A stretch of 64,000 bases of DNA, taken from positions 3,666,856-3,730,855 of the forward strand of contig NZ_LT599032.1 of the NCBI RefSeq assembly GCF_900079725.1. Direction: 5' to 3'. Source of the DNA: an uncultured Dysgonomonas sp. (lineage in GTDB: Bacteria > Bacteroidota > Bacteroidia > Bacteroidales > Dysgonomonadaceae). The notes beneath the pieces are model-generated. The model saw only the letters and a program-made list of their open reading frames with translations. It had not been told where the DNA came from and did not search any database. Numbering within the stretch: the stretch's first letter is position 1; every line of letters starts with the position of its first letter. Of the stretch, positions 35,946-53,440 are shown piece after piece. Both the position numbers and the translations under genes were made by a program.

Positions 35946-36554
35946 ATGAATAAGGAGCAAGATCTGATAAAAGACTTAATTGCAGGAAAAGAGGATGCCT
36001 ATAAGTATATATATGATCATCACTATCAAGCTTTATGTACATATGCTTATCAGTATGTGAAAGACGTTTATATAGCGGAAATGATTGTAGGGGATGTCAT
36101 TTTCTCTATTTGGTCTAAACATGATAATCTGATAATCAATAGTTCTTTGCGCGGTTATCTGATGAGTGCAGTAAAGAACACGTCGATAAATTATCTGATA
36201 AGAGAGAAAAAAATGGAGATTATAAAATCAGAGATTCAGTCATCGATGGAAAAAAATACGGATGTACTGACTTATCTGGAAAATTCCCCATTAACAAAGC
36301 TGATAGAAAGAGAACTTGACCTGAAGATTAAGGATACCCTTGCAAATATGCCCGACTTAACCCGCAGGGTATTTGAGTTGAGTCGGTTTTCTGATATGAA
36401 GTATCATGAAATAGCACAGACTCTTGATGTTTCGGTAGATACTGTAAAATATCATATGAAGGCTGCATTGTCGCGTTTGCGAAACGATCTGAAAGACTAT
36501 ATAAATGTATTAATACCTTTCTTATTAATTTTAATGAAAAAAGATCTGTTTTGA
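35946..36554 (+). CDS. ECF-type RNA polymerase sigma-70 factor
   Basis: This encodes 202 residues. Region 2 is at about 10-75 (DAYKYIYDHHYQALCTYAYQYVKDVYIAEMIVGDVIFSIW) and region 4 at about 125-180 (LANMPDLTRRVFELSRFSDMKYHEIAQTLDVSVDTVKYHMKAALSRLR); there is no region 3. This is the Bacteroidetes SusCD-linked ECF group. It would be held by the FecR-type anti-sigma encoded 51 bp downstream and released when the STN domain of the neighbouring SusC signals substrate. It is expected to transcribe the SusC operon from 37820. Confidence 0.95.
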   Translation: MNKEQDLIKDLIAGKEDAYKYIYDHHYQALCTYAYQYVKDVYIAEMIVGDVIFSIWSKHDNLIINSSLRGYLMSAVKNTSINYLIREKKMEIIKSEIQSSMEKNTDVLTYLENSPLTKLIERELDLKIKDTLANMPDLTRRVFELSRFSDMKYHEIAQTLDVSVDTVKYHMKAALSRLRNDLKDYINVLIPFLLILMKKDLF

Positions 36555-36605
36555 TTTACCCTTTTTTCATTTTGGTTTGTCTTTAATTATATAAGCAATA
36601 TATAA

Positions 36606-37649
36606 ATGGAAGAATACCACAATATAGACGAGCATAAGCTTACACTTATTATAGATTTTCTGGAAGGATCACTTTCGGAAAAAGATAATGATGAACTACA
36701 ACTTTGGTTAGCAGAATCCGAACTCCATGCATCCTACTTTGAGGAAATAAAAAAAATATACTATTCATTTGAATATATTAAGGAGAGCCAAAAATATGAT
36801 AAAGACAAGGCTTTCGATCTTTTTAAAGAGCGCATAGCAGTATCTTCAAATGATACCAAAGAAGAAGATGCGCGAGTAAATATAATTGCAGAGAAATCAT
36901 ATAATAGAAAAACACTCTTAACCGTAGCCGGTATTGCTGCAACTATTGCTTTGCTCATAGGCTTTTCTTTCTCTTTTCTTCAGATGAAGTCAACGACCTC
37001 TTTCCAAAAAGATGTTACGGTAGAATCGCCTCCGGGACAAAAGACAAAACTCTTTTTGCCGGATGGAACATTGGTCTGGTTAAATTCGGGTACAAGAATA
37101 ACGTATAATACCGATTATGGTGTGGATAACCGGAATATAAAAATGGATGGAGAAGCTTTCTTCGATGTGACGAGGAATGTAGAATTAAGCTTTAAGGTGG
37201 TAATTAATGATATACAAGTGAGTGTGCTGGGGACTTCGTTCGATGTTGAAGCCTATCAACGGGACAAGGAGATGTCAGTCTCTGTTATGACCGGGCAAGT
37301 CTCTGTAGGAAAGATAAATGACAAGATATTCGGAGTATTGAAGCCTAATGAAAAAATAGTTATAAATAAAGATAATAATAATTTTAAAATCCAAGCTTGT
37401 GATCCGGATATAGATGGTATATGGCGGCACGGACAACTCAAAATTATAAACGATCCTATGCCGGTAGTCATATCTAAAATGGAGCGTTGGTATGGTGTAA
37501 ATATTACGGTGGAAGGTAAAATTTCGCACGAACACTATTGGATGACTATAAAAACAGAATCGCTAACAGAAATACTCGAGTTAATAAATAAGATAACACC
37601 GATTAATTATAAAATAAAGGGAGAGGAGGTGATCATCAGATATAAGTAG
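36606..37649 (+). CDS. FecR-family anti-sigma factor
   Basis: This encodes 347 residues. An N-terminal cytoplasmic sigma-binding region (about 1-95, with IDFLEGSLSEKDNDELQLWLAES) leads into one transmembrane helix (about 98-122, LLTVAGIAATIALLIGFSFSFL). The periplasmic FecR domain follows (VESPPGQKTKLFLPDGTLVWLNSGTRITYN; VLGTSFDVEAY), then a DUF4974 C-terminal domain (MPVVISKMERWYGVNITVEG). It transmits signals from the STN-carrying SusC to the ECF sigma factor. The stop is followed at once by the terminator of a convergent antisense RNA. Confidence 0.95.
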   Translation: MEEYHNIDEHKLTLIIDFLEGSLSEKDNDELQLWLAESELHASYFEEIKKIYYSFEYIKESQKYDKDKAFDLFKERIAVSSNDTKEEDARVNIIAEKSYNRKTLLTVAGIAATIALLIGFSFSFLQMKSTTSFQKDVTVESPPGQKTKLFLPDGTLVWLNSGTRITYNTDYGVDNRNIKMDGEAFFDVTRNVELSFKVVINDIQVSVLGTSFDVEAYQRDKEMSVSVMTGQVSVGKINDKIFGVLKPNEKIVINKDNNNFKIQACDPDIDGIWRHGQLKIINDPMPVVISKMERWYGVNITVEGKISHEHYWMTIKTESLTEILELINKITPINYKIKGEEVIIRYK

Positions 37650-37656
37650 AGAGGGG

Positions 37657-37775
37657 AAAAAACGGGCTAAGAAACCCCAAATTTCTTAACCCGATTCAAG
37701 CAACAATTCGATTATAATACCACGCATAAATTGCTAAGAATAAATTCTTAGTAAAAGGTTATTATTCGATTGTCT
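37657..37775 (-). ncRNA. Predicted DonS-like antisense sRNA over the SusC leader
   Basis: The minus strand has a promoter (TTG at 37811-37809, 21 nt, TATCTTTG at 37787-37780) and about 90 nt further on an intrinsic terminator. The terminator is a 12-bp stem (37693-37682 with 37674-37663) followed by six T residues (37662-37657). The stem is strand-asymmetric: in minus-strand RNA its odd pair is a G-U wobble, while in plus-strand RNA it is a C-A mismatch with no T-run. The RNA would also contain a perfect 8-bp hairpin (37734-37751). Bacteroides ECF-controlled loci carry cis-antisense sRNAs between the anti-sigma and SusC genes (DonS of B. fragilis) that repress the locus. Position, strand and size match. 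Expression is not shown. Confidence 0.62.
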
Positions 37776-37779
37776 GTTG

Positions 37780-37811
37780 CAAAGATAATAGTTTATTCAA
37801 AAATTTAACAA
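37780..37811 (-). promoter_or_regulatory. Promoter of the predicted antisense sRNA
   Basis: The minus strand reads TTG (37811-37809), a 21-nt spacer, and TATCTTTG (37787-37780), close to the Bacteroidetes vegetative consensus. The predicted start is near 37775, directly opposite the SusC leader. This is a constitutive-looking promoter, unlike most coding-gene leaders here. Confidence 0.6.
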
Positions 37812-37819
37812 TCTAAACT

Positions 37820-40800
37820 ATGATAAAAACGACTAGATTTATCGCAATTTTGTCTTTTTTCGTGTTTTCTCTTTGTTCATTATCTTCAGTAGCAAATACA
37901 AATCAAACCTTATCGAAAATCAGCCTTGCTGGAGAGATGACACTTAAAGAGTTGACAACTCAGATAGAAAAGAAAACGAATTATACATTTGTTTTCAATT
38001 CATCGATTGATATGAACCAGCAAATTGCTGCAAATTTCAAAAATGAAACAGTATCGGCCATTTTGCAAAAAGCATTTGATGGCAAAGGTATTAGTTTCGA
38101 AATATTGAACAGACAAATAATCCTGAAGCCAGGCTCACAGCAGGCTCCTGCAAATAAAAAGACGATAAAAGGGACTGTGACAGATACCGAGGGAGAACCT
38201 CTGATTGGGGCCACAGTGAAAATAGTAGGAACAACTACTGCCACCTTAACGGATATAGATGGGAAATTCTCTATCGAAGCATCTGTAGGAGCAGTTTTGG
38301 AAGTTTCTTACGTGAGCTACCAGACAGAGTCGATAAAGATCAGGAATGAGGCCGAATTTAATATTATATTACAGCCTTTGGATAAGCTGCTGGATGAAAT
38401 AGTGGTAGTTGGATATGGTACACAAAAGAAAATTAACCTGACGGGTTCTGTCGGTGTGGTCACACCCGAAGAACTGAATAAACGCCCGATCACTAATGTA
38501 TCTACAGGTCTGCAAGGCTTGGTACCGGGTATGACTGTTACAGCCAGCGCAAACGGAGGTTTGCCGGGACAGTCTAATGCGTCGATACAGATCAGGGGTA
38601 TTGGTTCTGTGTCCAATAATAGTCCATTGATACTCATCGACGGAGCTGAAGGCGATATGAATATTATCAACCCGAACGATATAGAAAGTATTTCTGTATT
38701 GAAGGATGCTGCTTCGGCGGCGATATATGGAAACCGTGCTGCAAACGGGGTAATATTGATTACTACCAAAAGTGTAAAAGGCGGCGAACGTGCCCCTCAT
38801 ATCAATATCAATTCCTATATAGGAATACAGCAGCCAACCAAAATGCCTAAAATGGCGGACAGCCCAACTTTTATGGCTTGGGAAAATGAGGCTCAGGCAA
38901 ATATCGGAGGTAATCAGAACTATACAGCTGCGGATATACAAAAAGTTCTTGACGGTTCAGACCCTAATTATTATGCTAACACCGATTGGATAGATGCCGT
39001 ATTTAAATCTTCGGCGCCGCAATACAATTTTAATGCAAGTGTAGACGGCAAAGCAAAGAATATGGGCTATCTGATATCTTACGGTTATCTTGATCAGAAG
39101 GGCTTGACTGTAGGGAAGTCGACCAGTTCACAAAGGCACAATGTCCGTTTAAAACTGAATACAAAAGTAGCGGATATATTTAATATTACGGCCAATATGG
39201 GATATATCGAGAGAAACTTTACGGCACCTAATGCTTCTTTTGATCTCACAGCAGGATCTTTGTATAATGCAATGAGAACCCGCCCGTTAGTTCCGGTTCG
39301 TTTTACTGACGGAAAATGGGGATACGGAGGAGGACAAAGTAACCAGGTTGCATATCTTACAGATGGCGGTGGTCAGAACTTCAGATCGAATGAGTTTACC
39401 GGTAACTTTACAGTAGAAGCAGCTATAATGAAAGGCTGGACGGCCTCTGCAAATTATATCACCCGTCAATCTAACAGTTTCAGGAATCTTTTTAGTAAAA
39501 CTATTAATTTCTACTATCCGGATTCAGATGAAATATGGTATACAACCAATACACCAAACTCTATAGAGAACCGCGATTACAGGACTCTTAGCCAGAACTT
39601 ATTTATTCAGACAGACTATAGTCTGAAAATCAAGGATCATAGCTTCCAGGTAATGTTAGGTTATCAGCAGGAATGGCAAAGGAGTGATCAGTTTAATGCT
39701 TCGAGAAAAAATCTGATCACGGAAAAAGATCCTGTCCTTGAATTCGGATCTGCCGATACTCAGGCAAATTCGTCTGCTGCCAGCCATTGGTCTATGCGTT
39801 CAGGATTCGGGCGTTTAAACTATGATTATAAGAGCAAGTATCTATTGGAAGCGAATCTTCGTTACGATTTAACGTCCCGCTTCGATAAAAGTTATCGTGG
39901 AGAATGGTTCCCTTCTTTCTCTGCCGGATGGCGTATTTCCGAAGAGAATTTTATGGAAAATTTCAGAAGCTTCCTGGATCAGTTAAAATTGCGCGGGTCA
40001 TGGGGTATACTTGGTAATCAATATTCTACAGGTTCAGACCTCTACCCTTATCTTTCCCGTATAGGTTATGTGTCGGTACCGGCATTAGGAGCAGTTCCAA
40101 ATGACGGGTATGCTGAGACTTACATAGGTAATCCTATGTTGCTGTGGGAAATGGTGCATACTACCAATATTGGATTGGATATCAATGTGCTGAACAATAA
40201 ACTATCTTTCTCGGGAGACTATTATTTGCGAAAAACAAAAAGAATAATGTATACCCGTGAGCAGCCTGCAGTCGGAGGATTCCTAAAAGATATGGATGAA
40301 AATGGTGGCGAAATGGAAAATAAGGGATGGGAAATACAGGTAGACTGGAGAGATAAAGTAGGATCTGATATCAACTACGGATTAAGGTTTACTCTGGCTG
40401 ATGTGAAAAATAAAATCACAAACTGGGAATCGGAAAAAATCGGAACATACACTATAACCAGACAAGGAGAAACATACAATGCATTTTATGGCTTGGTAGC
40501 CGATGGTATAGCCATGCCTACCGATTTTGAATATTATGATGCGGCAAGGGGTAAATATATGAATCCGAAGTTCCCTATTATGTCGGGTGATGCAGGGTTG
40601 GTACAACCTGGAGATATAAAGTATAAAGATTTTAATGGAGATGGTGCCATTGATTTGGATAATGACAGAAAAGTTGTCGGAAGCTCTCTCCCTCGTTATA
40701 CATTTAGCCTGAAAGGTGATATAGAATATAAAGGTATTGATTTCAGCTTCTTGCTTCAGGGAGTGGGTAAAGTAGACGGATATATTTACGGGCCTGCACG

Positions 40801-41173
40801 CCATGCCTTTACCGATCAGTCGACATATCCTCAGACTTTCCATCAGGATCGTTACCAGGCGTCTAATCCGAATCCGAATGCAAAATACCCTCGTTTCACA
40901 TATAATCAGAGTTATAACCAACGTTTTTCTACATTCTGGATTGAAGATGCATCGTATCTGAGAATGAAAAATATACAGATTGGTTATACATTGCCGGCAA
41001 AGTGGACAAAACATGTGAGAATAGACAAGTGCCGTTTCTATGTGTCGGCAGATAATCTGTTTACAATTTCCGACTATTTCTCTTCCAGCGATCCGGAAAC
41101 TCCTATTCAGGGTGGAGGTAATTATCCTCAGATAAAAACTTTCGTATTTGGTGTAAATATAAGTCTTCATTAA
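37820..41173 (+). CDS. SusC-family TonB receptor/transducer with N-terminal STN domain
   Basis: This encodes 1117 residues. A signal peptide is followed by an STN domain (about 45-110, LKELTTQIEKKTNYTFVFNSSIDM). A CarboxypepD_reg domain (GTVTDTEGEPLIGATVKIVG), a TonB box (LDEIVVVGYGTQKK), a plug (DGAEGDMNIINPNDIESISVLKDAASAAIYGNRAANG) and a barrel ending GVNISLH come after. The STN domain is the signalling piece that contacts FecR-type anti-sigma factors, matching the sigma/anti-sigma pair just upstream. It is thus both importer and sensor. The substrate is unknown, because the operon has no glycoside hydrolase. The leader is overlapped by a predicted antisense sRNA. Confidence 0.96.
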   Translation: MIKTTRFIAILSFFVFSLCSLSSVANTNQTLSKISLAGEMTLKELTTQIEKKTNYTFVFNSSIDMNQQIAANFKNETVSAILQKAFDGKGISFEILNRQIILKPGSQQAPANKKTIKGTVTDTEGEPLIGATVKIVGTTTATLTDIDGKFSIEASVGAVLEVSYVSYQTESIKIRNEAEFNIILQPLDKLLDEIVVVGYGTQKKINLTGSVGVVTPEELNKRPITNVSTGLQGLVPGMTVTASANGGLPGQSNASIQIRGIGSVSNNSPLILIDGAEGDMNIINPNDIESISVLKDAASAAIYGNRAANGVILITTKSVKGGERAPHININSYIGIQQPTKMPKMADSPTFMAWENEAQANIGGNQNYTAADIQKVLDGSDPNYYANTDWIDAVFKSSAPQYNFNASVDGKAKNMGYLISYGYLDQKGLTVGKSTSSQRHNVRLKLNTKVADIFNITANMGYIERNFTAPNASFDLTAGSLYNAMRTRPLVPVRFTDGKWGYGGGQSNQVAYLTDGGGQNFRSNEFTGNFTVEAAIMKGWTASANYITRQSNSFRNLFSKTINFYYPDSDEIWYTTNTPNSIENRDYRTLSQNLFIQTDYSLKIKDHSFQVMLGYQQEWQRSDQFNASRKNLITEKDPVLEFGSADTQANSSAASHWSMRSGFGRLNYDYKSKYLLEANLRYDLTSRFDKSYRGEWFPSFSAGWRISEENFMENFRSFLDQLKLRGSWGILGNQYSTGSDLYPYLSRIGYVSVPALGAVPNDGYAETYIGNPMLLWEMVHTTNIGLDINVLNNKLSFSGDYYLRKTKRIMYTREQPAVGGFLKDMDENGGEMENKGWEIQVDWRDKVGSDINYGLRFTLADVKNKITNWESEKIGTYTITRQGETYNAFYGLVADGIAMPTDFEYYDAARGKYMNPKFPIMSGDAGLVQPGDIKYKDFNGDGAIDLDNDRKVVGSSLPRYTFSLKGDIEYKGIDFSFLLQGVGKVDGYIYGPARHAFTDQSTYPQTFHQDRYQASNPNPNAKYPRFTYNQSYNQRFSTFWIEDASYLRMKNIQIGYTLPAKWTKHVRIDKCRFYVSADNLFTISDYFSSSDPETPIQGGGNYPQIKTFVFGVNISLH

Positions 41174-41187
41174 AAACACATTTGATT

Positions 41188-42969
41188 ATGAAAAAGAATA
41201 TTACATACATCTTTATATTCGTATTTTCAGCTATACTCTTTTCCTGTAATGATGACTTTCTGGAAAAGGCTCCGTTAGATGAACTTACCGATGCTAATTT
41301 TTGGGAATCGGAGCTGCAGGTCAAAAACGCGGCAAATGGCTGTTACTGGACTTTGATAGGAAAAGATATGATGATTAATATCTCGGAAGGGTTGAGTGAT
41401 AATGCTTTATGGTATACTCTCAGTGGCTGGAGACAGGTAGGTAGCGGATTGTATGGTTCGGATTTTTCTACATTGGACGGTCGTTATAAAGATGCATACA
41501 AGCAATTGAGACGCTGTAATTATTTTCTGGCAAATTATAAACGGGCCGAAGGTATTGTAGACTCTAAAAAACTGGAGCAATATGCAGGAGAAGTACGATT
41601 CCTGAGGGCGTTTATTTATTATTATCTTACATGTTTCTGGGGCGATGTACCATTTATTACAGAACCGTTACCTCCGGGTGATGACAGATTGTTTGATGCC
41701 CGTACTTCCCGCAGTCAAATAGTAGATTTTATGTTGGAAGAGCTGGATGCAGCCGCAAAAACTTTACCGCGGTATATAGAGCCCGCAACTACCAGTTTTG
41801 GCCGAATTTCAGGTGCTGCTGCAAAAGCAATGGAATCACGTGTTGCATTGCAAAATGAAAGATGGACTGTAGCAAAAGCAGCTTGCGAAGCTCTTATGCC
41901 GGGTGGAGAATATGCTTATCACGAACTATATACAACCGGACGTCCGAATCAGGACTATTTCGACTTGTTTACATTCGAAGGTAGGGCATCCCGTAAAGCC
42001 GCTAATAAAGAAGCTATTTTGTCCTATGTCTATAATTTTGATTTGCCATCTCCGACAAGACATAATTTGAGTCGCGAATTACAGGTTCCTGACCAGATTA
42101 TAAGATTTAATGCAACCAAATCTATGGTAGATAGTTACCTGTGTACCGATGGTTTGCCTATCGAGAAATCAAAACTGTACAAAGGTGATGGAACATATAC
42201 TCCGGCTTATAGTGCATATGATAGTGTATTCGTTAACAGGGATCCTCGGTTGAAACAGTCTTTTGTTTACCCCGGATACGACAAATGGTACGGGAAAGTA
42301 GACGGCAGAGGTACGGCAAATGCTGCCGAAGACGCATCTAAAACAAATATTTTCCGTTCACCTAAGTTCAATAATGACGGTAAAGGAGCTGTGACTTATA
42401 CAGGTTACTATATTCGTAAATATTGTGAGCCATCGAAGGTTCCTCTTTACAATCAGGATGATAATGATATAGTTTTTATCCGTTACGGAGAAGTGCTTCT
42501 TAACTATGCTGAAGCCATGTTCAACTTGAATTCTTTGGATCAGGATGTTATTGATAAAACGATCAATAAATTGAGAGACAGAGTAGGGATGAAGAAAATG
42601 ATCCTTACAGAATTGCAAAGTAACGGACTGGATCTGAAAACGGAACTTCAGCGTGAGCGCCGTGTGGAACTATTTATGGAAGGGCATCGCTGGTATGACC
42701 TTATGAGATGGAAACAAGGATACGAATTGGGAGTAGATAAATCGGAAACGCCTGATCGTCAGGAAAAAGGAATTATGAAAGGTATCCGTAAGGACTATGC
42801 TTATGATCCGGCAGTATTTTCAGCAACTACCAAATTTGATGATAAAGGATTCCTTATATTTGACGATTCCCGTGTTTTCTCAAGTCCTAAAAATTATCTG
42901 TTCTCACTTCCATACCGGCAGATGGAGTTAAATCCGAATCTGAAACCTAATAATCCGGGATGGGAATGA
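41188..42969 (+). CDS. SusD-family lipoprotein of the ECF-controlled locus
   Basis: This encodes 593 residues. The ATG at 41188 is preferred over the in-frame TTG at 41182. The signal peptide ends at the lipobox ILFSC, followed by NDDFLEKAPLDELTDANFW, a classic SusD start. Core motifs are GEVRFLRAFIYYYLTCFWGDVPFITEPL, VFIRYGEVLLNYAEAMFNLN, LRDRVGM, RERRVELFMEGHRWYDLMRWK and NYLFSLPYRQMELNPNLKPNNPGW. It pairs with the SusC that ends 14 bp upstream. Confidence 0.96.
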   Translation: MKKNITYIFIFVFSAILFSCNDDFLEKAPLDELTDANFWESELQVKNAANGCYWTLIGKDMMINISEGLSDNALWYTLSGWRQVGSGLYGSDFSTLDGRYKDAYKQLRRCNYFLANYKRAEGIVDSKKLEQYAGEVRFLRAFIYYYLTCFWGDVPFITEPLPPGDDRLFDARTSRSQIVDFMLEELDAAAKTLPRYIEPATTSFGRISGAAAKAMESRVALQNERWTVAKAACEALMPGGEYAYHELYTTGRPNQDYFDLFTFEGRASRKAANKEAILSYVYNFDLPSPTRHNLSRELQVPDQIIRFNATKSMVDSYLCTDGLPIEKSKLYKGDGTYTPAYSAYDSVFVNRDPRLKQSFVYPGYDKWYGKVDGRGTANAAEDASKTNIFRSPKFNNDGKGAVTYTGYYIRKYCEPSKVPLYNQDDNDIVFIRYGEVLLNYAEAMFNLNSLDQDVIDKTINKLRDRVGMKKMILTELQSNGLDLKTELQRERRVELFMEGHRWYDLMRWKQGYELGVDKSETPDRQEKGIMKGIRKDYAYDPAVFSATTKFDDKGFLIFDDSRVFSSPKNYLFSLPYRQMELNPNLKPNNPGWE

Positions 42970-42990
42970 CAATTATCAAAATAAATGATT

Positions 42991-43767
42991 ATGACGAACA
43001 AAATTAGATATTTAATTATTTGTGCTTTGTTAGGATTGCTGGCCAATGGTATGCTTATGGCGCAGACATCATTCAGGCTGATGAATTTCAACACCCGCAT
43101 GTCGGGGCAGATGGTTAATTATTCAGCTAAACCATTTGCAACTTTGATCAAGAAGCATAATCCGGACTTTATCATCTTGCAGGAAGTGGATTACTTTACT
43201 GTAAGAAATGGAGGGAAAGATTTTACAACAGAGTTGGCTGCGGAGATGGGGATGTTTTCCGCTTTTGGCCCGGCCATAGTTTATCAACAGGGGGAATATG
43301 GGGTTGCTATTCTGTCAAAATATCCGATACAGAAAATATCCAATAACCCGTTGACTAGCAGTTCTGCCGATATGAAAGAAAAGCGAACCGTTCTCTATAT
43401 TGATGTAATATTACCCGGAAGCAACGAAAAAGTGCGGGTGGCGGCGACTCATCTCGACCATTCAACGGATAATGTGCGTTTAGATATGGCGCGCCAGTTG
43501 GACTCATATGTCGGAAATTCATTTCCTACTATATTGGCAGGGGATTTTAATGCCAAACCCGGAGAAAATGCTATTGTGCAGGGAATGTCTAACTGGCAAC
43601 GGATTTGTAATAATTTCCCGACTTTCCCGGCAATTCCTACAAGTAAGATCGATTATATTTTTGCTAAACCTACAGGAAAATGGACTGTAAAATCCTATGA
43701 AATATTGAAAGAAACAGGGATTTCTGATCATTGCGCCTTGGTAACAGATGTTGAATATAATAAATAA
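42991..43767 (+). CDS. Secreted endonuclease/exonuclease/phosphatase-family (EEP) enzyme 1
   Basis: This encodes about 258 residues with a signal peptide ending MLMAQ. EEP (DNase I-like) fold motifs follow in order: LMNFNTRM, PDFIILQEVDYF (metal-binding Glu), THLDHSTDNVRLDMARQL (catalytic His region), LAGDFNAKPGENAIV (catalytic Asp/Asn), KIDYIF and ISDHCAL (C-terminal Asp-His). All active-site motifs are intact. The fold covers DNases, sphingomyelinases, inositol-phosphate and other phosphodiesterases, so the substrate is open. It lies 21 bp after susD and has a paralogue at 44560. A start 6 bp earlier (42985) is also possible. Confidence 0.88.
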   Translation: MTNKIRYLIICALLGLLANGMLMAQTSFRLMNFNTRMSGQMVNYSAKPFATLIKKHNPDFIILQEVDYFTVRNGGKDFTTELAAEMGMFSAFGPAIVYQQGEYGVAILSKYPIQKISNNPLTSSSADMKEKRTVLYIDVILPGSNEKVRVAATHLDHSTDNVRLDMARQLDSYVGNSFPTILAGDFNAKPGENAIVQGMSNWQRICNNFPTFPAIPTSKIDYIFAKPTGKWTVKSYEILKETGISDHCALVTDVEYNK

Positions 43768-43774
43768 CCCGGAT

Positions 43775-44563
43775 ATGAAAGATTTAATAAAACTGATAGG
43801 AATACTGTTATCGGTGCTATTGTTTGCTTGTTCTTCCGATAGTGGTGATGACGGAGGCGATGGTGGTGGAGGCGGAAAGGATGATGTATGGGATAAGAAC
43901 AGGACCGCCAAGGTTTTGGTGATATCCGATTTATCAGCAGGAAACCTCTTTCCAAATGCGAATTATAGTTCCGTGGTAAATAAGATAAAGGCAACAGAGC
44001 AAAATGCAATCTTGCTGAACAATACGAATGTTTCTTTTTCGGCTACGGAGATGTTGAATCCTGCTGCGAAAGTTGCGTATCAGTCTCTTTATATGCCTTA
44101 TTTTGTCCCTGGAGGAAAAACCGGTAGCGAGTATCTGGGAAATACGATACTTCTCGGGCTGGCATTAAGTGATATGCAACAAACGGTTTTGACCACTGAT
44201 TGTTGGATGTTTCAGGCAGAGATTCCATTTACTTCGTCATTGAAGATGAGGTTCTCTTCTGCTACTTTCACTTCAGATGATCAGATCGCAGCAGCCGTCA
44301 GTTCCATAAAGAATAACTTATTTGTTTCCACGTTGGTTGTCGGTACTGTTAAGAGATCTCTCACATCTAAATTAGAGTCGTCGCTAAGTACTGCTTTAAC
44401 AAAAGATTCTTATATGCTGAATATTATAGACAATGCAAATAAATCGAGCGAATATTGTATATATATTCTTGGATCATCAAAATGGAAACTGAGAGACATG
44501 AGTGAAACTGCCATATCAGGAGATATTAAAAGCTTTCTTGTTCAGATTGAATTACTTAAATGA
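43775..44563 (+). CDS. Unrecognised lipoprotein between two EEP enzymes
   Basis: This encodes 262 residues. The ATG at 43775 is chosen because it opens a signal peptide ending in the lipobox LLFAC; an in-frame ATG at 43748 would overlap the upstream gene. After the Cys comes a low-complexity Asp/Gly-rich linker (GDDGGDGGGGG), typical of surface-exposed lipoproteins. A globular domain of about 210 residues follows, beginning TAKVLVISDLSAGNLFP. I do not recognise the family. Its stop overlaps the start of the next gene (ATGA at 44560), so the two are probably translationally coupled. Co-location suggests it handles the same substrate as the EEP enzymes. Confidence 0.8.
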   Translation: MKDLIKLIGILLSVLLFACSSDSGDDGGDGGGGGKDDVWDKNRTAKVLVISDLSAGNLFPNANYSSVVNKIKATEQNAILLNNTNVSFSATEMLNPAAKVAYQSLYMPYFVPGGKTGSEYLGNTILLGLALSDMQQTVLTTDCWMFQAEIPFTSSLKMRFSSATFTSDDQIAAAVSSIKNNLFVSTLVVGTVKRSLTSKLESSLSTALTKDSYMLNIIDNANKSSEYCIYILGSSKWKLRDMSETAISGDIKSFLVQIELLK

Positions 44564-45363
44564 AAAGACAAATGAAGAAAATATTTGACTTTCGTATATA
44601 TATACTGATAATCCTTTCTTTTTCAGCAGTGAATTCCCTGGCACAGGATAAAGTTCAGCTTAAAGTGTTGTGTTATAATCTCCGTTTTGGAGAATTGGCT
44701 TCATTAGAAGAATTTGCTGAATTTATAAAGAAAGAAAATCCTGATATCGTTGCCTTACAGGAGGTGGATGTAAATACTTCGAGAACAAGGGTGCCGCACC
44801 AGAATGGTAAGAATTTCATATCGGAACTGGCCTTTCGTACAGGAATGCTATCCCTTTACGGTAGAACAATCGATTACGCCGGCGGATATTATGGTATTGG
44901 TATACTTAGTAAATATCCTATCAGTCAGTCGCAGCGTATATTCTTACCAATGCCGGAAGGAGCAAAAGAGCGGCGGGCGCTTTTAACGGGAGAAGTAGAA
45001 TTATCTGAAGGAAAATCAATCACTTTTGCCTGTACCCATCTCGATTATACAACCTCGGCAGTGAGAAGGGCACAAGTAGATTTCATTAATCAACAATTGA
45101 TGAAGATTGAAACACCGATCATACTATGTGGTGATTTTAATGCCAAACCTGATTCGGATGAAATTGCCACTGGTATGAAAAACTGGATGCAGGTGAGTGC
45201 AATGGATTTTACGATTCCGGCCAAGAGCCCAAAATCTAAGATCGATTATATATTTTGTTATCCGGCATCTAATGTCTGGAAAATTGTAGACTCCTACACC
45301 CCGGTTACCCAGTTATCAGATCATTTACCGATTATCACGACGTTAACTTTAGAGACTAATTAA
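44560..45363 (+). CDS. Secreted endonuclease/exonuclease/phosphatase-family (EEP) enzyme 2
   Basis: This encodes 267 residues and overlaps the preceding stop by ATGA; a start at 44572 is also possible. It has a signal peptide ending NSLAQ. EEP motifs are LKVLCYNLRFGE, PDIVALQEVDVNT, CTHLDYTTSAVRRAQVDF, LCGDFNAKPDSDEIATGM, KSKIDYIFCYP and LSDHLPI. The catalytic set is complete. It is clearly homologous to the enzyme at 42991 (shared GDFNAKP and GM-NW stretches), which points to a duplication within the operon. Two secreted paralogues may act at different linkages or at different sides of the outer membrane. Substrate unknown. Confidence 0.88.
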   Translation: MKRQMKKIFDFRIYILIILSFSAVNSLAQDKVQLKVLCYNLRFGELASLEEFAEFIKKENPDIVALQEVDVNTSRTRVPHQNGKNFISELAFRTGMLSLYGRTIDYAGGYYGIGILSKYPISQSQRIFLPMPEGAKERRALLTGEVELSEGKSITFACTHLDYTTSAVRRAQVDFINQQLMKIETPIILCGDFNAKPDSDEIATGMKNWMQVSAMDFTIPAKSPKSKIDYIFCYPASNVWKIVDSYTPVTQLSDHLPIITTLTLETN

Positions 45364-45382: not shown

Positions 45383-46960
45383 ATGAAAAGAAATCTATTA
45401 TATATCAGATATAAGTTATTGTGTGTTTCGTTTATAGTAGCTGCCCTTTTTATGGCTTGCAGCGATGACGATAAAACGACCAATTATCTGGATGATAATG
45501 CTTATCCGCCTCCTACAGTAAGCCTGACAACTGAAACAGCGTATAGCGAAGTGGATATAAATACCAACAAAGTAGTAGAAGGTACTGTTACTGCCCCTAA
45601 TGGATTACGGAATATTTATGGGACTCTTTTGCGTAAAACGGCAGACGGATATGAGGAGATAGATGCTAACAAAAGAGTGCATGTGAAGCTGGCTGAATTT
45701 CCTAACACTTATAGTTTCTCTATCGAAGTTCCTGTAAGTGCTGAAGATGCAGGTGGTATTGCGATTGTGGCTAATGATATTTATGTAAAACAAGTAATAC
45801 AGAATATTCCTATTGAAAAGATAACAGGAATACCTCCGAAAATCACAACAGATCCGGCCGAGATCGAATCTGTAGAGTTAAATGGTACTGTTTCGTTGGA
45901 GGGGGTAGTATCTTCCATTGAGGGGCTTAAATCCTTGAGCTACGGTTTGGTTCAGAAATCACCGTATCTTGAACTTCAGGATGTAAAGAATATTGCTGTA
46001 TCGAACGATAAAGAAAAATCATTCCAATTCTCTATTACAGTAGACGATGAAAGGGCTGACGCGGTTATGATTAAAGCTATCGATATCAGGAATGTGGAGA
46101 AAGTACACTTCGTGAATATTAAAGGGATAACAGGAATACCTCCGGGCAGAGCTTATATATTTGATAATGTGGAGATGGCTCCGGAATGGGAATGCTACTC
46201 TGGAGCAAACCCTCTTCCTGGTGCATCTCAACCGTATCTATTCTCAATAGAGGGAATAAACGTGGGAGGTTCAGTAAAAAATATCTTGTCTCTTTCTGAT
46301 GTCATATCTGTTTCTTCAGGAAGTGTGGATTTTGCTTTTGTGAATATTTGGAGAAATACTAATATTACTGATGGTGGATTTCTTAATCGGGTAGGCAATA
46401 GAGGCTTTGCATATGTATCTGCTGATCGTCTTGACGGAGGTCCGGTAGGACGTCAATTAGATAAAGATTGGTTTACTACTGTAAATAGAAATAGAACTCA
46501 GTTCAAGATCATAACAACAGATCTCGTCACATCGATGAATTTGGATGATTTTTTTGAAACAACTACTGGGAACTGGGAGGCATATGAATTATTAAACCTA
46601 CTTGCTGGTTATGTTCCGGTTTACAGTACTACTACAGATTTACGTTCTCTTCCACAGAGAACGAATTCTGGTACATCTGCCAGCCCTGCTGTTTTACAAA
46701 TAACGAATGGAACTTATATTGCTTTTCGAACGGCAGAAAATAAATTCGGAGTTATGAAAGTAGTACAAGCAGGTGATGATTCGGATGTTTTATCTTCAAA
46801 TAATAAGATAGAAGATGTAACGACGGGTCTGGGTGCAGGTATAGCCAATAAATCTCCGGAAGCATTCTACTCTGCTGCGGGACTGGCCGGATTCGATTAT
46901 TCAGGGGTAACAAAACTCTATGGAAGAAAGTGTAAACTGAAAATTATCGTTCAACGGTAA
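45383..46960 (+). CDS. Large surface lipoprotein with two Ig-like repeats, unrecognised C-terminal domain
   Basis: This encodes 525 residues with a lipobox (LFMAC). Two Ig-like modules (about 45-155 and 160-265) each end in the repeated motif (E/K)-ITGIPP, a tandem duplication. The C-terminal half (about 275-525, beginning RAYIFDNVEMAPEW) is beta-rich and not a family I can name; DFAFVNIWRN and YIAFRTAENKFGVMKV look like strands of a binding domain. As the last gene of the SusCD operon and probably surface-exposed, it is a candidate ligand-binding protein. A terminator hairpin follows. Confidence 0.78.
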   Translation: MKRNLLYIRYKLLCVSFIVAALFMACSDDDKTTNYLDDNAYPPPTVSLTTETAYSEVDINTNKVVEGTVTAPNGLRNIYGTLLRKTADGYEEIDANKRVHVKLAEFPNTYSFSIEVPVSAEDAGGIAIVANDIYVKQVIQNIPIEKITGIPPKITTDPAEIESVELNGTVSLEGVVSSIEGLKSLSYGLVQKSPYLELQDVKNIAVSNDKEKSFQFSITVDDERADAVMIKAIDIRNVEKVHFVNIKGITGIPPGRAYIFDNVEMAPEWECYSGANPLPGASQPYLFSIEGINVGGSVKNILSLSDVISVSSGSVDFAFVNIWRNTNITDGGFLNRVGNRGFAYVSADRLDGGPVGRQLDKDWFTTVNRNRTQFKIITTDLVTSMNLDDFFETTTGNWEAYELLNLLAGYVPVYSTTTDLRSLPQRTNSGTSASPAVLQITNGTYIAFRTAENKFGVMKVVQAGDDSDVLSSNNKIEDVTTGLGAGIANKSPEAFYSAAGLAGFDYSGVTKLYGRKCKLKIIVQR

Positions 46961-47234: not shown

Positions 47235-48491
47235 ATGAAAACTAACCGACGAAATTTTTTAAAAACTTTAGGGGCATTCACTGCTCTGACAATCATTCCC
47301 CGGCAAGTGCTGGGAAATGGCTATATAGCCCCCAGCGACCAACTGACTAAGGGCATAATTGGTACAGGAAATATGGGACGCGGGCATCTTAAATATGCTG
47401 GTACACGTTTAGTCGCAGTTTGCGATGTAGATAAGAAACACCTGGAATTAGGTAAAAACCTTGTCACAGACAAAATAGCGGCATATCATGATTTCAGGGA
47501 TCTCATTATGGATAAAAATGTCGATATTGTCCATATAGCGACACCTCCGCACTGGCATGGTATCATGTCGGTAGAAGCTGCCAAAGCTGGAAAAGATATT
47601 TGGTGCGAAAAACCCATGACCCGTACTATAGGAGAGGGTAAAAGGGTGATGGAAGCTGTAAAACAATATGGAAACATGTTCCGGCTGAATACATGGTTTC
47701 GTTTCAAGGATAATTTTTATGGATTGGGAACCCCAGTCCAGCCATTAAAGAAGTTGGTACAGAGTGGTATGTTAGGCTGGCCGTTGAAAGTAACGATAAG
47801 TAAACATACAGGATTCGACTGGAAATTCTTTTGGGTAGGAAAGGAGTATCTCGAACCGCAACCTGTTCCTGAAGAACTGGATTATGACATGTGGCTCGGG
47901 CCCGCGCCGTACAAACCATATAACTCTCACCGTGTTCATAGTACATTCCGTGGTTATTGGGATTATGATGGCGGAGGATTAGGTGATATGGGACAGCATT
48001 ACATAGACCCCGTTCAGTATTTTTTGGGTAAAGACCATACAAGCCCTGTGAAAGTGGAAGTAGATGCACCTCAGCAGCACCCCGATGCCATTGGAGTCTG
48101 GCGCTCTATAACTTATACCTACGATGATGGTTGCCAGATAGTATTGTGGGGAGGCGATTATGGAAACCCTGATACTCCTTATATATCAGGCCCTAAGGGA
48201 AATGTATACAAGAATTTCGTATGTGATATCCCTGATTGGGAGAAAAAACTGGCTGACTACCCTGAACCGGAAGCTCAGGTCACAGACTTTATAGAAAGTG
48301 TGAAAACCCGTAAAATATTTGCCCTCAACGAGCAAAACGGATTCAGGTCTGCAACTATTGTGAATATGGGACTTGTGGCATTAAGGTTAAACCGCACATT
48401 GCATTTCGATCCGGTGAAACTTGAGTTTATCAATGATGAAGCGGCAAACCGTCTGGTGGATCAGCCAATGCGCTCTCCGTGGAATATATAA
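47235..48491 (+). CDS. Gfo/Idh/MocA-family oxidoreductase with Tat-type signal
   Basis: This encodes 418 residues. The N-terminus MKTNRRNFLKTLGAF carries a twin-arginine motif and hydrophobic stretch, so folded, cofactor-loaded export is likely. A Rossmann motif (GIIGTGNMGRGH), the family EKP motif (WCEKPMTRT) and a C-terminal oxidoreductase domain (GLGDMGQHYIDPVQYFLG) follow. Members oxidise or reduce sugars with tightly bound NAD(P). The next gene encodes a DUF1080 protein, a family linked to 3-keto-glycoside hydrolysis, and Gfo/Idh/MocA enzymes make such 3-keto sugars, so the two may work in sequence. The exact substrate is unknown. Confidence 0.9.
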   Translation: MKTNRRNFLKTLGAFTALTIIPRQVLGNGYIAPSDQLTKGIIGTGNMGRGHLKYAGTRLVAVCDVDKKHLELGKNLVTDKIAAYHDFRDLIMDKNVDIVHIATPPHWHGIMSVEAAKAGKDIWCEKPMTRTIGEGKRVMEAVKQYGNMFRLNTWFRFKDNFYGLGTPVQPLKKLVQSGMLGWPLKVTISKHTGFDWKFFWVGKEYLEPQPVPEELDYDMWLGPAPYKPYNSHRVHSTFRGYWDYDGGGLGDMGQHYIDPVQYFLGKDHTSPVKVEVDAPQQHPDAIGVWRSITYTYDDGCQIVLWGGDYGNPDTPYISGPKGNVYKNFVCDIPDWEKKLADYPEPEAQVTDFIESVKTRKIFALNEQNGFRSATIVNMGLVALRLNRTLHFDPVKLEFINDEAANRLVDQPMRSPWNI

Positions 48492-48515
48492 TGGTTTAAT
48501 CTTAAAGTGATTTTT

Positions 48516-51323
48516 ATGAAAAAGATATATTTATTATGTTTAGCTTATATATATTGTCTCATGGCTGTTTGCCAGACTCCGGTGGGGAGAACGGTTGAGA
48601 CTATCGTTGCTGATGTTCTGGCACAGATGCCCGCTCAGAATGCGGAACAATACAATCTGCTGTTAAATGATCTGGCTTCGACAAAAGAAGAAGGTGTTTT
48701 TCAACTGATAAAAATGATAAACCCTCCCGGTAAAGGAAGCAATGCTCAGGTGGAATATGCCCTGAACGGGCTTTCCTACTATGTTTCTGCTGAGGGACAG
48801 GATGCAAATCGTATAACTGTTTCTAATGCTTATATAAAAGCATTGGATATGACTGATAATAAGGATGTCAAAGCCTTTATTATTCGTCAGCTCCAAATCG
48901 TAGGAAAAGATGAAGCTATAGAGAAGCTGTCGTCGTTTATTAGTGATGAATCTTTAAGTGGCCCGGCCTGCCGTGCATTGGTTTCGATCAAATCCGACGA
49001 TGCGGCCAAGGCTCTGCTGAACGCTCTTACTACGGTGGCTAATCAAAAGACGAAAAAAGATATTATCGAAGCTATCGCTGAAATGCAAATAGCAGACGCG
49101 GAAGGAAAATTGCTTGCTATATTGAGCAATGATAAGGACGATGATATACGGAAAGCCACAATGTATGCTTTAAGCCGTTGCGGATCAAAGGCTTCTTTAA
49201 AAGATTTGTCCTTAGCTGCGGAGAAGGCGGGTTATGCGGTAGATAAATCAGGGGCGACAGAGGCTTACATCGCTCTGCTGAAAAGATTACTTGATAAGGG
49301 TGACACAAAAGATGTGACCAAGGCGGCGAATGATTTAATGAAAAAAGCTGAAAAAGCAGGTCAGAGACATACACGTGAAGCCGCTTTGCAAATACTGATG
49401 AGTGCCAATCCCGGCGATGCGTTAAAATTATTACAGGCTGCACTGAAAGAGGATGATAGGAATTATAGGTTTGCTGCTCTGAATTTTGCATCGGAATTTG
49501 CTTCCGGAAATATGTATAAAGAACTATTAAAGACGATGCAAAAAGCACAGCCGGCAGTAAAAACAGATATTACCAACTGGATTTTACAGGAGTGCGCAGA
49601 TGAAAAGAAGAAAGCATTAATAGGTTCCTTCGCTACAGATATATTCATTGAGCAGTTAGGAAACAATGATATGGTACTGAAAAATGCGACGATAGATGTT
49701 TTGGTCAGAATCGGAGGGCATAAACCTATACTGGCTTTAGCGGATTTGCTGGCATCTGATGATAAAGAAGTTGTGTCGATGGCTAAAAATGGCCTGTTAT
49801 CTACGAATGGAAATATCTCTGCTGCTATTGTTCCCGTAATGGATAAGGCGACCAATGACGGGAAAGTTGCCGCCTTGGAATTACTGGCAGCCCGAAAAGC
49901 ATCGAAATATGGTGATATAGTATTCGGCTTATTGACATCGGATTCACAAGATGTAAAAGCGGCAGCCTATGCAGCGCTGAAAGATGTCAGTACCTCCGGT
50001 AACTTATCCGGTCTGTATGGATTGCTAGAGAAATCCGATGCATCTTTCGTTTCCCCGGTTCAGCAAGCTATAATAAATTCATTATCGGAATATCCTGCAG
50101 ATAAGCAGGTGACTTTGGTTATTAACCAGATGGATAAAACTTCTTTAGATAAAAAATATCTGTATTATCCAGTCTTAGCCGCTACCGGAGATAAACAGGC
50201 TTTAAAAATAATATCCGAAGGCTTCAAAAATTCTACTGGCGAAGCTCAGGAAGTTGCTTTCCGTTCGTTGCTCGACTGGAAAGGTATTGAGGCTGCGAAA
50301 GACTTGTTGGCTATCTGTAAAGATTCCGGCTTGTCCGCTTATTTCGACCGTTCCTTGTCAGGATATATAGGGCTTGTCTCTAACCCTCAGATCAAGGCGG
50401 AAGAACGGTTTGGATATCTTAACAATGCCTTGTCGCTGGCCAGAACCACTGTGCAAAAGAAATCTATATTAACCCAGCTTGGTAAGACCAACGTATATCC
50501 CGCAATGCTGGCGGCAGGAAAATATCTAGATGACACGTCTGTGCAACAGGAAGCTGCCCAGGCTGTAATGACTATAGCTCTGGCCAATAAAGATTTTGCA
50601 GGGAAAAACGTAGAAGATTTATTAAATAAGGTCATCCTTGTTCTTAATAATCCGGATGCTGAATACCAGAAACAGGCTATTCGCGATCATCTGAGTAGTT
50701 TAGTTCCACCTAAACCTTTCCTACTACCGGATGAAGAAAAAAAGGAGGGGTATCTTATACTCTTTGACGGTACTACTATGGACCAGTGGACAGGTAATGT
50801 AACTGACTATATTTTGGAGAATGGTTGTATATCGCTGCATCCGAGCAGCGCTCACGGAGGAAATCTATATACGAAAGAAGAATTTTCCAACTTTATTTTC
50901 CGTTTCGAATTTCAGTTGACCCCTGGTGCCAATAATGGTTTGGGTATTCGTACCCCGATGGAAGGTGATGCCGCTTATGTGGGTATGGAACTACAAATTC
51001 TCGACAATGAAGCTCCTGTGTACAGCAATCTTGCCGTGTATCAGTACCATGGTTCGGTCTATGGTATTATTCCGGCCAAAAGAGGGTATCTGAAGCCTGT
51101 CGGAGAATGGAATTATCAGGAAGTTATCGCTAATGGCGACAACATAAAGATAACTCTTAACGGAACTGTTATCCTTGACGGAAATATAAGAGAAGCTACT
51201 AAAAACGGGATACCTGATAAGAAAAACCATCCGGGACTATTCAACAAAAAGGGGCATATAGGTTTTCTGGGACATGGTTCGCCTGTTAAGTTTAAAAACA
51301 TAAGGATTAAGAATCTGAAATAA
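48516..51323 (+). CDS. HEAT-repeat plus DUF1080 (3-keto-disaccharide hydrolase-like) protein
   Basis: This encodes 935 residues. The ATG at 48516 starts the signal peptide (IYLLCLAYIYCLMAVCQ). Residues about 30-720 are a long alpha-solenoid of HEAT-like repeats (for example DDIRKATMYALSRCG, KEVVSMAKNGLLSTNG). The C-terminal 190 residues are a DUF1080 concanavalin-like domain (GYLILFDGTTMDQWTGN, GGNLYTKEEFSNFIFRFEFQLTPGANNGLGIRTP, GHIGFLGHGSPVKFKNIRIK). DUF1080 proteins include 3-keto-glycoside hydrolases. The solenoid is far longer than the enzyme domain and may bind partners or present substrate. It follows the Gfo/Idh/MocA gene closely and precedes a permease, suggesting one uptake pathway. 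Confidence 0.9.
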   Translation: MKKIYLLCLAYIYCLMAVCQTPVGRTVETIVADVLAQMPAQNAEQYNLLLNDLASTKEEGVFQLIKMINPPGKGSNAQVEYALNGLSYYVSAEGQDANRITVSNAYIKALDMTDNKDVKAFIIRQLQIVGKDEAIEKLSSFISDESLSGPACRALVSIKSDDAAKALLNALTTVANQKTKKDIIEAIAEMQIADAEGKLLAILSNDKDDDIRKATMYALSRCGSKASLKDLSLAAEKAGYAVDKSGATEAYIALLKRLLDKGDTKDVTKAANDLMKKAEKAGQRHTREAALQILMSANPGDALKLLQAALKEDDRNYRFAALNFASEFASGNMYKELLKTMQKAQPAVKTDITNWILQECADEKKKALIGSFATDIFIEQLGNNDMVLKNATIDVLVRIGGHKPILALADLLASDDKEVVSMAKNGLLSTNGNISAAIVPVMDKATNDGKVAALELLAARKASKYGDIVFGLLTSDSQDVKAAAYAALKDVSTSGNLSGLYGLLEKSDASFVSPVQQAIINSLSEYPADKQVTLVINQMDKTSLDKKYLYYPVLAATGDKQALKIISEGFKNSTGEAQEVAFRSLLDWKGIEAAKDLLAICKDSGLSAYFDRSLSGYIGLVSNPQIKAEERFGYLNNALSLARTTVQKKSILTQLGKTNVYPAMLAAGKYLDDTSVQQEAAQAVMTIALANKDFAGKNVEDLLNKVILVLNNPDAEYQKQAIRDHLSSLVPPKPFLLPDEEKKEGYLILFDGTTMDQWTGNVTDYILENGCISLHPSSAHGGNLYTKEEFSNFIFRFEFQLTPGANNGLGIRTPMEGDAAYVGMELQILDNEAPVYSNLAVYQYHGSVYGIIPAKRGYLKPVGEWNYQEVIANGDNIKITLNGTVILDGNIREATKNGIPDKKNHPGLFNKKGHIGFLGHGSPVKFKNIRIKNLK

Positions 51324-51330
51324 ACTATAT

Positions 51331-52623
51331 ATGGAAGCAGCAACCATCGACTGGTATGGAGCCTTGATCGGTCTGGCGATAGCGATCATCCTGATTTTAA
51401 AAAAGCTGAATCCTGTTTATTCTTTATTTCTGGGTGCGATAATAGGATCCCTGATCGGCGGAGCGGATTTCCTGCAAACGACTACCATTATTATTAATGG
51501 AACGCAAAGCATTATCGGTATTGTAGTCAGGGTATTGGCAGCCGGGGTGCTGGCCGGGGTCATGATGGACTCAGGTGCTGCGGAAACCATCGCGCAGACT
51601 ATCGTAAGGAAACTCGGAGGCAGTAAAGCCATTCTTGCCCTTGCCTTGGCGACTATGATAATCACGGCTGTAGGAGTATTTATCCCGGTAGCAGTGCTTA
51701 TTGTTGCCCCGATTGGTTTGTCAGTAGCTAAAACAATGGGGTTTTCCAAGATAGCCCTTCTTTTAGCTCTTTCGGGCGGAGGGAAGGCTGGTAATGTAAT
51801 ATCTCCCAACCCGAATTCTATTGCTGTTGCCAATGGCTTTGGGGTAGAGTTGAGTGATGTCATGCTCTATGGCTTTATCCCTGCGGTTTTCGGATTGCTT
51901 GTGACTGTTTTTGTGGCTACAATGATTAAGAATAAAGGATCGGAGATAAAGGACAGTGATATAAAAATACCTGCCGATACCTCGGATTATCCCCCTTTTC
52001 GCAAAGCGATTGTAGCACCGGCTGTTGCGATATTACTGTTAATGATTAATCCTATTGGTTCTATCTTTGGGATACCTGCATTGCAAAGCCTGAAACTAGA
52101 TGCGATGTATGTACTCCCTATAGCCGGGATAATAGGGTTAATGGCAATGGGAAAGGCAAAGAAAATACTCGATTATACAGCAAGTGGTATGAACCGTATG
52201 ACGGCAACTGTGCTTATACTGATAGGTGCGGGAGCGATAGCCGGATTGATATCCGCATCGGATCTATCTGTAAGGATTGTGGCTCTTATCAATGAATCCG
52301 GAATTTCCGGAACGTTTCTTGCCCCTATTGCAGGTGTATTGATGGCGGCAGCAACCGCTTCAACATCCACAGGGGTGATATTAGCTTCGGGTTCTTTTGG
52401 TAAAGCTATTCTTGATATAGGGACGGCACCTATTGCAGCGGCGGTGATGGTGCACACAGGGGCAACGGTGATAGATCAGCTTCCTCAGGGGAATTATTTT
52501 CATGTAACGGCAGGTTCGATGTATATGTCGATTAAGGAGCGTATGAAAGTTGTTCCGTATGAAGCCATTATAGGTGGGGTTATGACAATTGTTTCTACAA
52601 TTCTGTATGGGTTTATATTTTGA
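51331..52623 (+). CDS. GntP-family permease (gluconate/glycerate-type)
   Basis: This 430-residue inner-membrane protein has about 12 hydrophobic segments and the layout of GntP-type gluconate/organic-acid:H+ symporters. Recognisable stretches are KLNPVYSLFLGAIIGSLIGG, GVLAGVMMDSGAAETIAQTIV, GGGKAGNVISPNPNSIAVANGFG and VMVHTGATVIDQLPQGNYFHVTAGSMYM. It begins 7 bp after the DUF1080 gene, so the two are co-transcribed. The next gene, past a repeat element, is a glycerate kinase, which makes glycerate or a sugar acid a plausible cargo. Cargo is inference. Confidence 0.88.
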   Translation: MEAATIDWYGALIGLAIAIILILKKLNPVYSLFLGAIIGSLIGGADFLQTTTIIINGTQSIIGIVVRVLAAGVLAGVMMDSGAAETIAQTIVRKLGGSKAILALALATMIITAVGVFIPVAVLIVAPIGLSVAKTMGFSKIALLLALSGGGKAGNVISPNPNSIAVANGFGVELSDVMLYGFIPAVFGLLVTVFVATMIKNKGSEIKDSDIKIPADTSDYPPFRKAIVAPAVAILLLMINPIGSIFGIPALQSLKLDAMYVLPIAGIIGLMAMGKAKKILDYTASGMNRMTATVLILIGAGAIAGLISASDLSVRIVALINESGISGTFLAPIAGVLMAAATASTSTGVILASGSFGKAILDIGTAPIAAAVMVHTGATVIDQLPQGNYFHVTAGSMYMSIKERMKVVPYEAIIGGVMTIVSTILYGFIF

Positions 52624-52656
52624 GGAATGAATAATGTTTATTGTTATATAGAATAG

Positions 52657-53362: not shown

Positions 53363-53440
53363 CGTTTTAAGTAGCGAGAGCAGAAGCAAAATTTATTTTG
53401 ATTATGCCGAGTCACGAAAAATGACTAATGAAATTGAATA
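53363..53440. repeat. Diverged extra copy of the element's terminal repeat
   Basis: Directly after the right terminal repeat comes a second, degenerate copy in the same orientation. It ends in the same ATGACTAATGAAATTGAA as the first, with an AAAATTTATTTTGATTATGCC core resembling AATTTATTTGAATTATGCC. It may mark an earlier insertion or a nested element. The region 53441-53502 holds the upstream sequence of the glycerate kinase gene. Confidence 0.55.

Follow-up and report, generated by a model that had tools for sequence, protein, structure and literature searches.

SusC-type importers decide which nutrients gut and environmental Bacteroidota take up. In a Dysgonomonas species (genome 5.22 Mb), a gap of 170 nt separates the gene for a FecR-type anti-sigma factor from the susC gene that follows it, and the minus strand of this gap bears a promoter-like sequence and a terminator-like hairpin. 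Is this a gene for an antisense RNA, and would such an RNA govern the importer? The locus lies in a stretch of 64,000 nucleotides (the window), whose numbering is used throughout.

A predicted antisense transcription unit

The promoter reads TTG-21-TATCTTTG on the minus strand (37811-37780): a −33 TTG at 37809-37811 and a −7 box, TATCTTTG, at 37780-37787. The terminator hairpin, CGGGTTAAGAAA...TTTCTTAGCCCG (37693-37663), has 12 outer pairs, one of them G-U (14 pairs and a 3-nt loop by the scanner's count), and runs into six T residues, TTTTTT, at 37662-37657. Inspection of the sense strand found no T-run 3' of the hairpin. Direct reading thus bears out three elements of the first-pass annotation: the spaced promoter, the 12-pair terminator with its six T residues, and the strand asymmetry of that terminator. 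This observation, an antisense promoter followed by a terminator, is confirmed at the level of sequence. The predicted minus-strand RNA would span about 119 nt (37657-37775), its ends being predicted from promoter and terminator. Its 5' domain (37694-37774) is predicted to fold as a long imperfect hairpin with the inner stem CTAAGAA/TTCTTAG.

How much weight can one locus bear? A terminator scan of positions 36000-39000 returned two matches, both of them the 37693-37663 hairpin. The criteria are loose, giving 1.6 terminator-like sites per shuffle, and a single locus is therefore weak evidence. For the predicted RNA (37774-37656), the folding energy is −31.6 kcal/mol (z = −3.9), which none of 200 shuffles equalled. 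The sense strand also folds strongly, because inverted repeats fold on both strands, so folding cannot decide the strand. The sense-strand value (z = −5.0) is what could be said for a different reading: that the inverted repeat acts on the sense strand as a leader attenuator, or as a DNA operator, and that its antisense appearance is accidental. In the window, the T-run and the G-U pair do point to the minus strand as the one that would be transcribed.

Rfam gave no match at gathering level in the window; a weak, unrelated match near the site (E 0.076) fell far below its gathering score and was set aside.

The operon and its products

All genes of the locus lie on the plus strand. An ECF sigma factor (35946-36554; Pfam Sigma70_r2, Sigma70_r4_2) and the FecR-type anti-sigma factor (36606-37649; Pfam FecR, FecR_C) precede the SusC-type TonB-dependent receptor (37820-41173; Pfam STN, CarbopepD_reg_2, Plug), whose leader lies opposite the predicted antisense RNA. 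A SusD-type protein follows (41182-42969; Pfam SusD_RagB), and then four further products: a first EEP-family (endonuclease/exonuclease/phosphatase) enzyme (42985-43767; Pfam PF03372), a 271-aa lipoprotein (43748-44563), a second EEP-family enzyme (44560-45363), and a 525-aa lipoprotein of unassigned family (45383-46960), conserved with the operon.

Both EEP-family enzymes keep their catalytic motifs: the N, QE, H, GDFN, and DH positions, which we take to be those expected in active enzymes of this family, are the same in all 15 aligned sequences. For the 271-aa lipoprotein, neither Pfam nor NCBIfam gave a match, and no EEP catalytic motifs were seen in its sequence. Its AlphaFold model (mean pLDDT 71) nevertheless matches EEP folds in Foldseek, for example Tdp2 and 3g6s, at TM about 0.5; the model suggests a probable EEP-fold pseudoenzyme. 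Positions 42985-45363 thus hold three adjacent EEP-fold genes, the middle one apparently without catalytic residues.

This three-gene set is conserved in Dysgonomonas, and there is one EEP gene fewer in Parabacteroides and Proteiniphilum. SusC-SusD-EEP cores also occur in Pontibacter, Pararcticibacter, a Sphingobacteriales bin, and Spirosoma. Family searches and structure models recognised no glycosidase among the operon products, so the regulatory device would not be tied to glycan breakdown. That the substrate is a phosphodiester such as nucleic acid is a guess. Farther downstream (47235-54651) lie genes for a Gfo/Idh-type dehydrogenase, a 938-aa protein of unclear family, a GntP-type transporter, and a glycerate kinase.

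Conservation in relatives that keep the operon

We compared seven relatives whose SusC proteins are 63-92% identical to that of the window, the closest found by sequence comparison being that of Dysgonomonas sp. Marseille-P4677 (92%). In two of them, an orthologous sigma gene stands in tandem with FecR: Marseille-P4677 (88% identity) and D. hofstadii (51%). Both retain all eight letters of the −7 box and a terminator in the corresponding position; D. hofstadii does not have the −33 TTG. The proposal of a DonS-like antisense RNA gene between the anti-sigma and susC genes thereby gains support.

All 12 terminator pairs hold in the three sequences, and one pair is changed on both sides. This result is matched by 183 of 500 shuffles, so three sequences are too few for covariation alone to be informative. 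The 5' domain of D. hofstadii has diverged (41 of 88 aligned columns identical) and has a similar fold, of which the aligned consensus retains only part.

Loss of promoter and terminator in close relatives that keep the susC locus is what the first-pass annotation had named as a refutation, and it applies to five of the seven (L053-L057), which lack the pair: Dysgonomonas sp. BGC7, Parabacteroides sp. Marseille-P3160, and three Proteiniphilum. Their regulators differ too. BGC7 and Marseille-P3160 have a divergent sigma gene (27-29% identical) and a FecR 41-47% identical; the Proteiniphilum FecR proteins are 28-31% identical, and no sigma gene was found within the fetched stretch. Because these five relatives have a different or differently arranged regulator, presence of the RNA seems to track the arrangement of the sigma/anti-sigma genes, not SusC. 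Three of the five carry a lone TAnnTTTG without a terminator, which in one Proteiniphilum (L055) lies over the start codon.

A DNA search with the gap in 61 genomes matched five, two of them over nearly the full length (the genome itself and G009). For the covariance search in related genomes that had been suggested as a check, a model (R1) built from the window RNA and its two orthologues was searched in 25 genomes; it clearly recovered only these three, which are its own training sequences. This fits an RNA matched to its own target. Eight other R1 matches (E 0.06-0.91) were taken as noise.

The FecR-susC junction in Dysgonomonas and the Bacteroidales

If one locus is weak evidence, what of the same junction elsewhere? 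The FecR matches listed in 25 Dysgonomonas genomes, including the genome itself, supplied 118 loci (38 returned directly, 80 as fetched stretches). A FecR stop codon and a next long open reading frame were found in 116. Seventeen were set aside, 15 because the gap fell outside 90-330 nt and two because the next gene did not fit, leaving 99 gaps, among which each near-duplicate locus counts on its own. We took the gene after FecR to be the next long open reading frame, on inspection of its N-terminus by eye and not by family search. The criteria of the terminator finder were set by visual inspection of the first loci, at seven pairs to begin with and eight for the gap counts. The class motifs were derived from the same data in which they are counted; the controls are the sense strand, shuffles, other genes, and other families.

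The asymmetry between strands is large. Antisense terminators occur in 65 of the 99 gaps, against seven on the sense strand and a mean of 1.2 in shuffles (maximum 4 in 20 rounds). The promoter box TAnnTTTG is found in 56 gaps antisense, five sense, and 23 in shuffles; promoter and terminator in proper order, in 43, 0, and 0.1, respectively. A second set, drawn from the order (148 genomes), behaves alike. Of its 89 loci outside the genus (29 returned directly, 60 as fetched stretches), seven were too short or lacked a next gene. Of the 82 that were left, 80 yielded a junction, with a gap of 90-330 nt in 60. Here antisense terminators number 39 against two sense, and ordered pairs 27 against none. 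By these criteria, an antisense terminator is missing from 34 gaps of the genus set and from 21 of the order set.

These counts bear directly on the sense-strand attenuator or DNA operator introduced above. Foldability on both strands would suit it, but T-runs fall on the antisense side (65 of 99 and 39 of 60, versus seven and two), and an antisense promoter stands ahead of the terminator in 43 and 27 gaps versus 0 and 0. We regard it as very improbable.

Equally improbable is functionless, spurious antisense transcription in AT-rich DNA. It has a precedent of sorts: one study reports that 73% of antisense starts in B. thetaiotaomicron give short, weak transcripts, some perhaps spurious (PMC7366714). 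Against it stand the frequency of the promoter-plus-terminator layout, far above shuffles (43 versus 0.1), and the absence of that layout upstream of 26 other TonB/SusC genes of the same genome. The latter control covered 30 of the 97 TonB/SusC matches in the genome, 26 not behind FecR and four behind it; an antisense terminator lies upstream of four of four FecR-linked genes and of 0 of the 26 others. The same contig (C1) has five more FecR-to-susC junctions with antisense terminators, at about 93.4, 3540.7, 3620.1, 4403.7, and 5094.2 kb (L012, L015, L008, L014, and L011, respectively). The case against chance is thus comparative, since two further species share box and terminator and the 99 and 60 gaps are strand-asymmetric. 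The antisense RNA gene is very probably real.

Eighty SusC loci were fetched phylum-wide, of which three were skipped and 77 were usable. Any antisense terminator was present in five of 26 loci behind FecR versus eight of 51 others; therefore, terminators alone do not mark FecR loci in this set. Seven of the eight non-FecR loci are from Arenibacter and share one repeat.

That repeat, AACTCTAAAATTCATGAATTTTAGAGTT, is inverted and resembles an antisense terminator; it precedes susC by about 150 nt, and no FecR was detected at these loci (L104, L107, L109, L110, L112, L113, and L115).

Geometry of the junction

Where does the antisense promoter lie relative to the gene it faces? In 35 of the 99 genus gaps, its −7 box lies over the susC start codon, reading CAAAnnTATG on the sense strand; CAAA at other upstream positions occurs in 1.3 gaps on average. 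In the order set this start-codon box is present in 33 of 60 gaps (other positions, 0.48 on average), for a total of 68 of 159. Among 734 open reading frames of at least 200 aa (the window plus 80 named loci), six have it, four of which encode SusC behind FecR; among the phylum-wide SusC loci, it is found in four of 26 behind FecR versus 0 of 51 others.

The 43 ordered genus pairs divide by box position into 31 on the start codon, three at −19 to −22, and nine farther upstream. The window belongs to the nine, its box being 33 nt farther upstream than in the start-codon form. Box and terminator positions together define two main forms, with predicted RNAs of about 80 and about 120 nt, both lengths within the 78-128 nt that PMC7366714 gives for the DonS family. 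With a predicted start about 45 nt ahead of the susC ATG, the window RNA would not cover the start codon. The layout of the window locus is a shifted version of one that is common in the order.

The plus strand offers a candidate for the opposing promoter. A motif, TAACCTTA-N8..17-GCCTATG, reaches a score of 12 or more (of 15) in 44 of the 99 gaps, and on the minus strand in one. We infer that this is the ECF promoter of susC, with a seed taken from the same data; the available portions of PMC12596196 and PMC10861873 hold nothing usable on the promoter motif of this ECF sigma factor. In 23 loci with both elements, the antisense terminator lies a median of 33 nt downstream of the motif, and the RNA would therefore be confined to the leader. 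Such confinement speaks for a discrete RNA product and against read-through as a means of blocking the susC promoter. In the window, no susC promoter or start site was identified: the best candidate by analogy with the class motif scores 10 of 15 in the gap, below the cut-off of 12, and was rejected. Overlap between the antisense RNA and the susC mRNA is therefore an assumption for this locus.

A further conserved stretch adjoins the junction. The 3' end of the window FecR gene, GGAGAGGAGGTGA (37620-37632), includes a textbook Shine-Dalgarno stretch. The corresponding GGRRAGGAGGT, which codes for G[KE]EV, is kept in 14 of 116 FecR genes. Of the 17 sites where [KEDNRQ]EV is encoded close to the end of FecR, 14 have it, even though these genes prefer GAA over GAG by about 3:1. 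Five loci that lack an antisense terminator (L025, L027, L028, L047, and L148) retain it as well; it is perhaps part of the susC promoter.

The same geometry might be taken to mean transcription interference: a face-to-face antisense promoter would lower susC expression through polymerase collision, and the RNA would be a by-product. If the susC promoter is indeed the plus-strand motif, the class would have convergent promoters about 100-150 bp apart, and the commonest form places its antisense −7 box on the susC start codon. Nevertheless, an antisense unit meant to block the probable ECF promoter would have no need of a terminator of its own ahead of that promoter. The terminator hairpins themselves supply a second objection.

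A shared terminator hairpin

Many of these hairpins share sequence and covary; we consider interference unlikely, though a more serious contender than either attenuation or noise. The motif GGR..RTG..CAY..YYC occurs in 40 of the 104 antisense terminators (65 plus 39). Among control terminators it occurs in two of 87 strong ones and in three of a looser 357, a set that includes chance hairpins in genes. The control matches (L088, L103, and L129, from Arcicella, Mariniphaga, and Sphingobacterium) are themselves on the minus strand just upstream of susC behind FecR. In the phylum-wide set, the RTG..CAY hairpin is present at three of 26 SusC loci behind FecR and 0 of 51 others. Rfam gave no match at gathering level in 20 of these hairpin loci.

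A covariance model of the hairpin (R2) was built from 33 of the 40 motif terminators. This alignment, itself selected for the motif, has 97.2% paired cells, and 10 of 12 pairs show changes on both sides. Searching six whole genomes with R2 yielded 88 matches at E up to 1, of which 30 came with loci. Twenty-eight of the 30 are antisense between FecR and SusC genes; the other two adjoin one of these genes. By coordinate comparison, 13 are training sequences; 15 of the 17 others lie at a FecR-SusC junction.

In the genome that holds the window, the whole-genome R2 search gave five weak matches (E 0.28-4.2), none at a FecR place. With filters off, a search of its ten FecR loci found the terminators of L008, L012, L014, and L015 (E 4e-5 to 0.008); that of the window reached only E 0.77 (13.1 bits), and that of L011 was not found. 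The window hairpin is therefore a divergent one.

These results suggest a joint reading, which we hold to be somewhat more probable than its negation. An antisense RNA would be a standard part of anti-sigma-to-susC junctions in the Bacteroidales. Its commonest form would have the CAAAnnTATG promoter over the start codon and would end, just downstream of the ECF promoter, in the shared covarying hairpin (approximately CGGRAAUG-loop-CAUUUYCCG-U-run). These RNAs would form one family, unmatched in Rfam, of which the window RNA is a shifted variant. The hairpin may bind a common partner, either a protein or a kissing loop, and each RNA would set the expression threshold of its importer.

A model for antisense control

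For the window, we favour the reading that the interval is a free-standing gene for a DonS-type antisense RNA, with a housekeeping-type Bacteroidetes promoter and its own terminator, that would act on its own susC mRNA. We give this a probability of roughly two in three. Counting against it are the five relatives that keep the operon without the promoter-terminator pair, the gaps of both sets in which no antisense terminator was found, the low motif score in the window gap, and the positive correlation of some such RNAs in B. thetaiotaomicron with their PUL (PMC10994844). Promoter, terminator, strand, conservation, and class geometry are read from sequence; from them we infer transcription, overlap with the susC mRNA, pairing, and repression. 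The antisense RNA would be made without the ECF sigma factor and would pair along the 5' leader of its susC mRNA. The duplex would lead to cleavage, or to an early end of the susC transcript, and leaky susC transcripts would thereby be removed. The operon would come on only when the ECF sigma factor yields more sense RNA than there is antisense RNA present.

The RNA could thus turn the importer down, as one of many at the same type of junction in related bacteria. The recurring layout (start-codon box, leader-confined RNA, and shared hairpin) provides concrete parts to mutate.

Comparison with known systems

Cao et al. (2016) reportedly described DonS and other PUL-associated cis-antisense RNAs of Bacteroides fragilis. 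We found no report of the start-codon box or of the shared hairpin among the titles and opening lines of abstracts listed, and Cao et al. may already describe them. A literature search on antisense RNA in Dysgonomonas found one paper, an unrelated one.

Such RNAs are already known from two species. In B. fragilis, antisense RNAs occur at 15 PULs (PMC9723704), and DonS is reported to repress its PUL (PMC7366714, PMC9723704, PMC11697453) by a mechanism called unknown (PMC11697453). In B. thetaiotaomicron, the count of PUL-associated antisense RNAs stands at ten in one study (PMC7366714) and 32 in another (PMC10994844), with Northern confirmation of five (PMC7366714) and two more (PMC10994844). 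Some of them correlate positively with their PUL, and functional work on the class has been called for (PMC10994844). The first-pass annotation saw in the window an extension of the mechanism to a locus with no glycan enzymes: the absence of a recognised glycosidase stands, but with 32 RNAs already reported the novelty was overstated.

A second kind of regulator works differently. PMC11697453 describes the FopS family of small RNAs, which with RbpB represses susC-type mRNAs; its members share an R1' seed and use it close to the start codons of several PUL mRNAs. The authors deposited the FopS consensus in Rfam. The window RNA, in contrast, is locus-specific in the R1 covariance search. As for kinship with FopS or GibS, of which a shared R1 seed is the mark, no family of Rfam 15 matched at gathering level, either in the window or in 20 loci of the class; that release may lack FopS.

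DonS family RNAs are 78-128 nt long and antisense to the 5' side of a susC homologue (PMC7366714), and host-glycan PULs are linked with ECF sigma/anti-sigma pairs (PMC11697453). The window gene likewise faces the 5' end of a susC homologue from the other strand, its predicted RNA of about 119 nt falls within that size range, and the locus has both SusC/SusD and an ECF sigma/anti-sigma pair. It differs in its host, Dysgonomonas, and in encoding EEP-family enzymes and no recognised glycosidase; the likeness described here is one of layout. With the B. thetaiotaomicron RNAs it shares the DonS-like orientation to susC. By its predicted layout, then, the window RNA belongs with the DonS-type RNAs.
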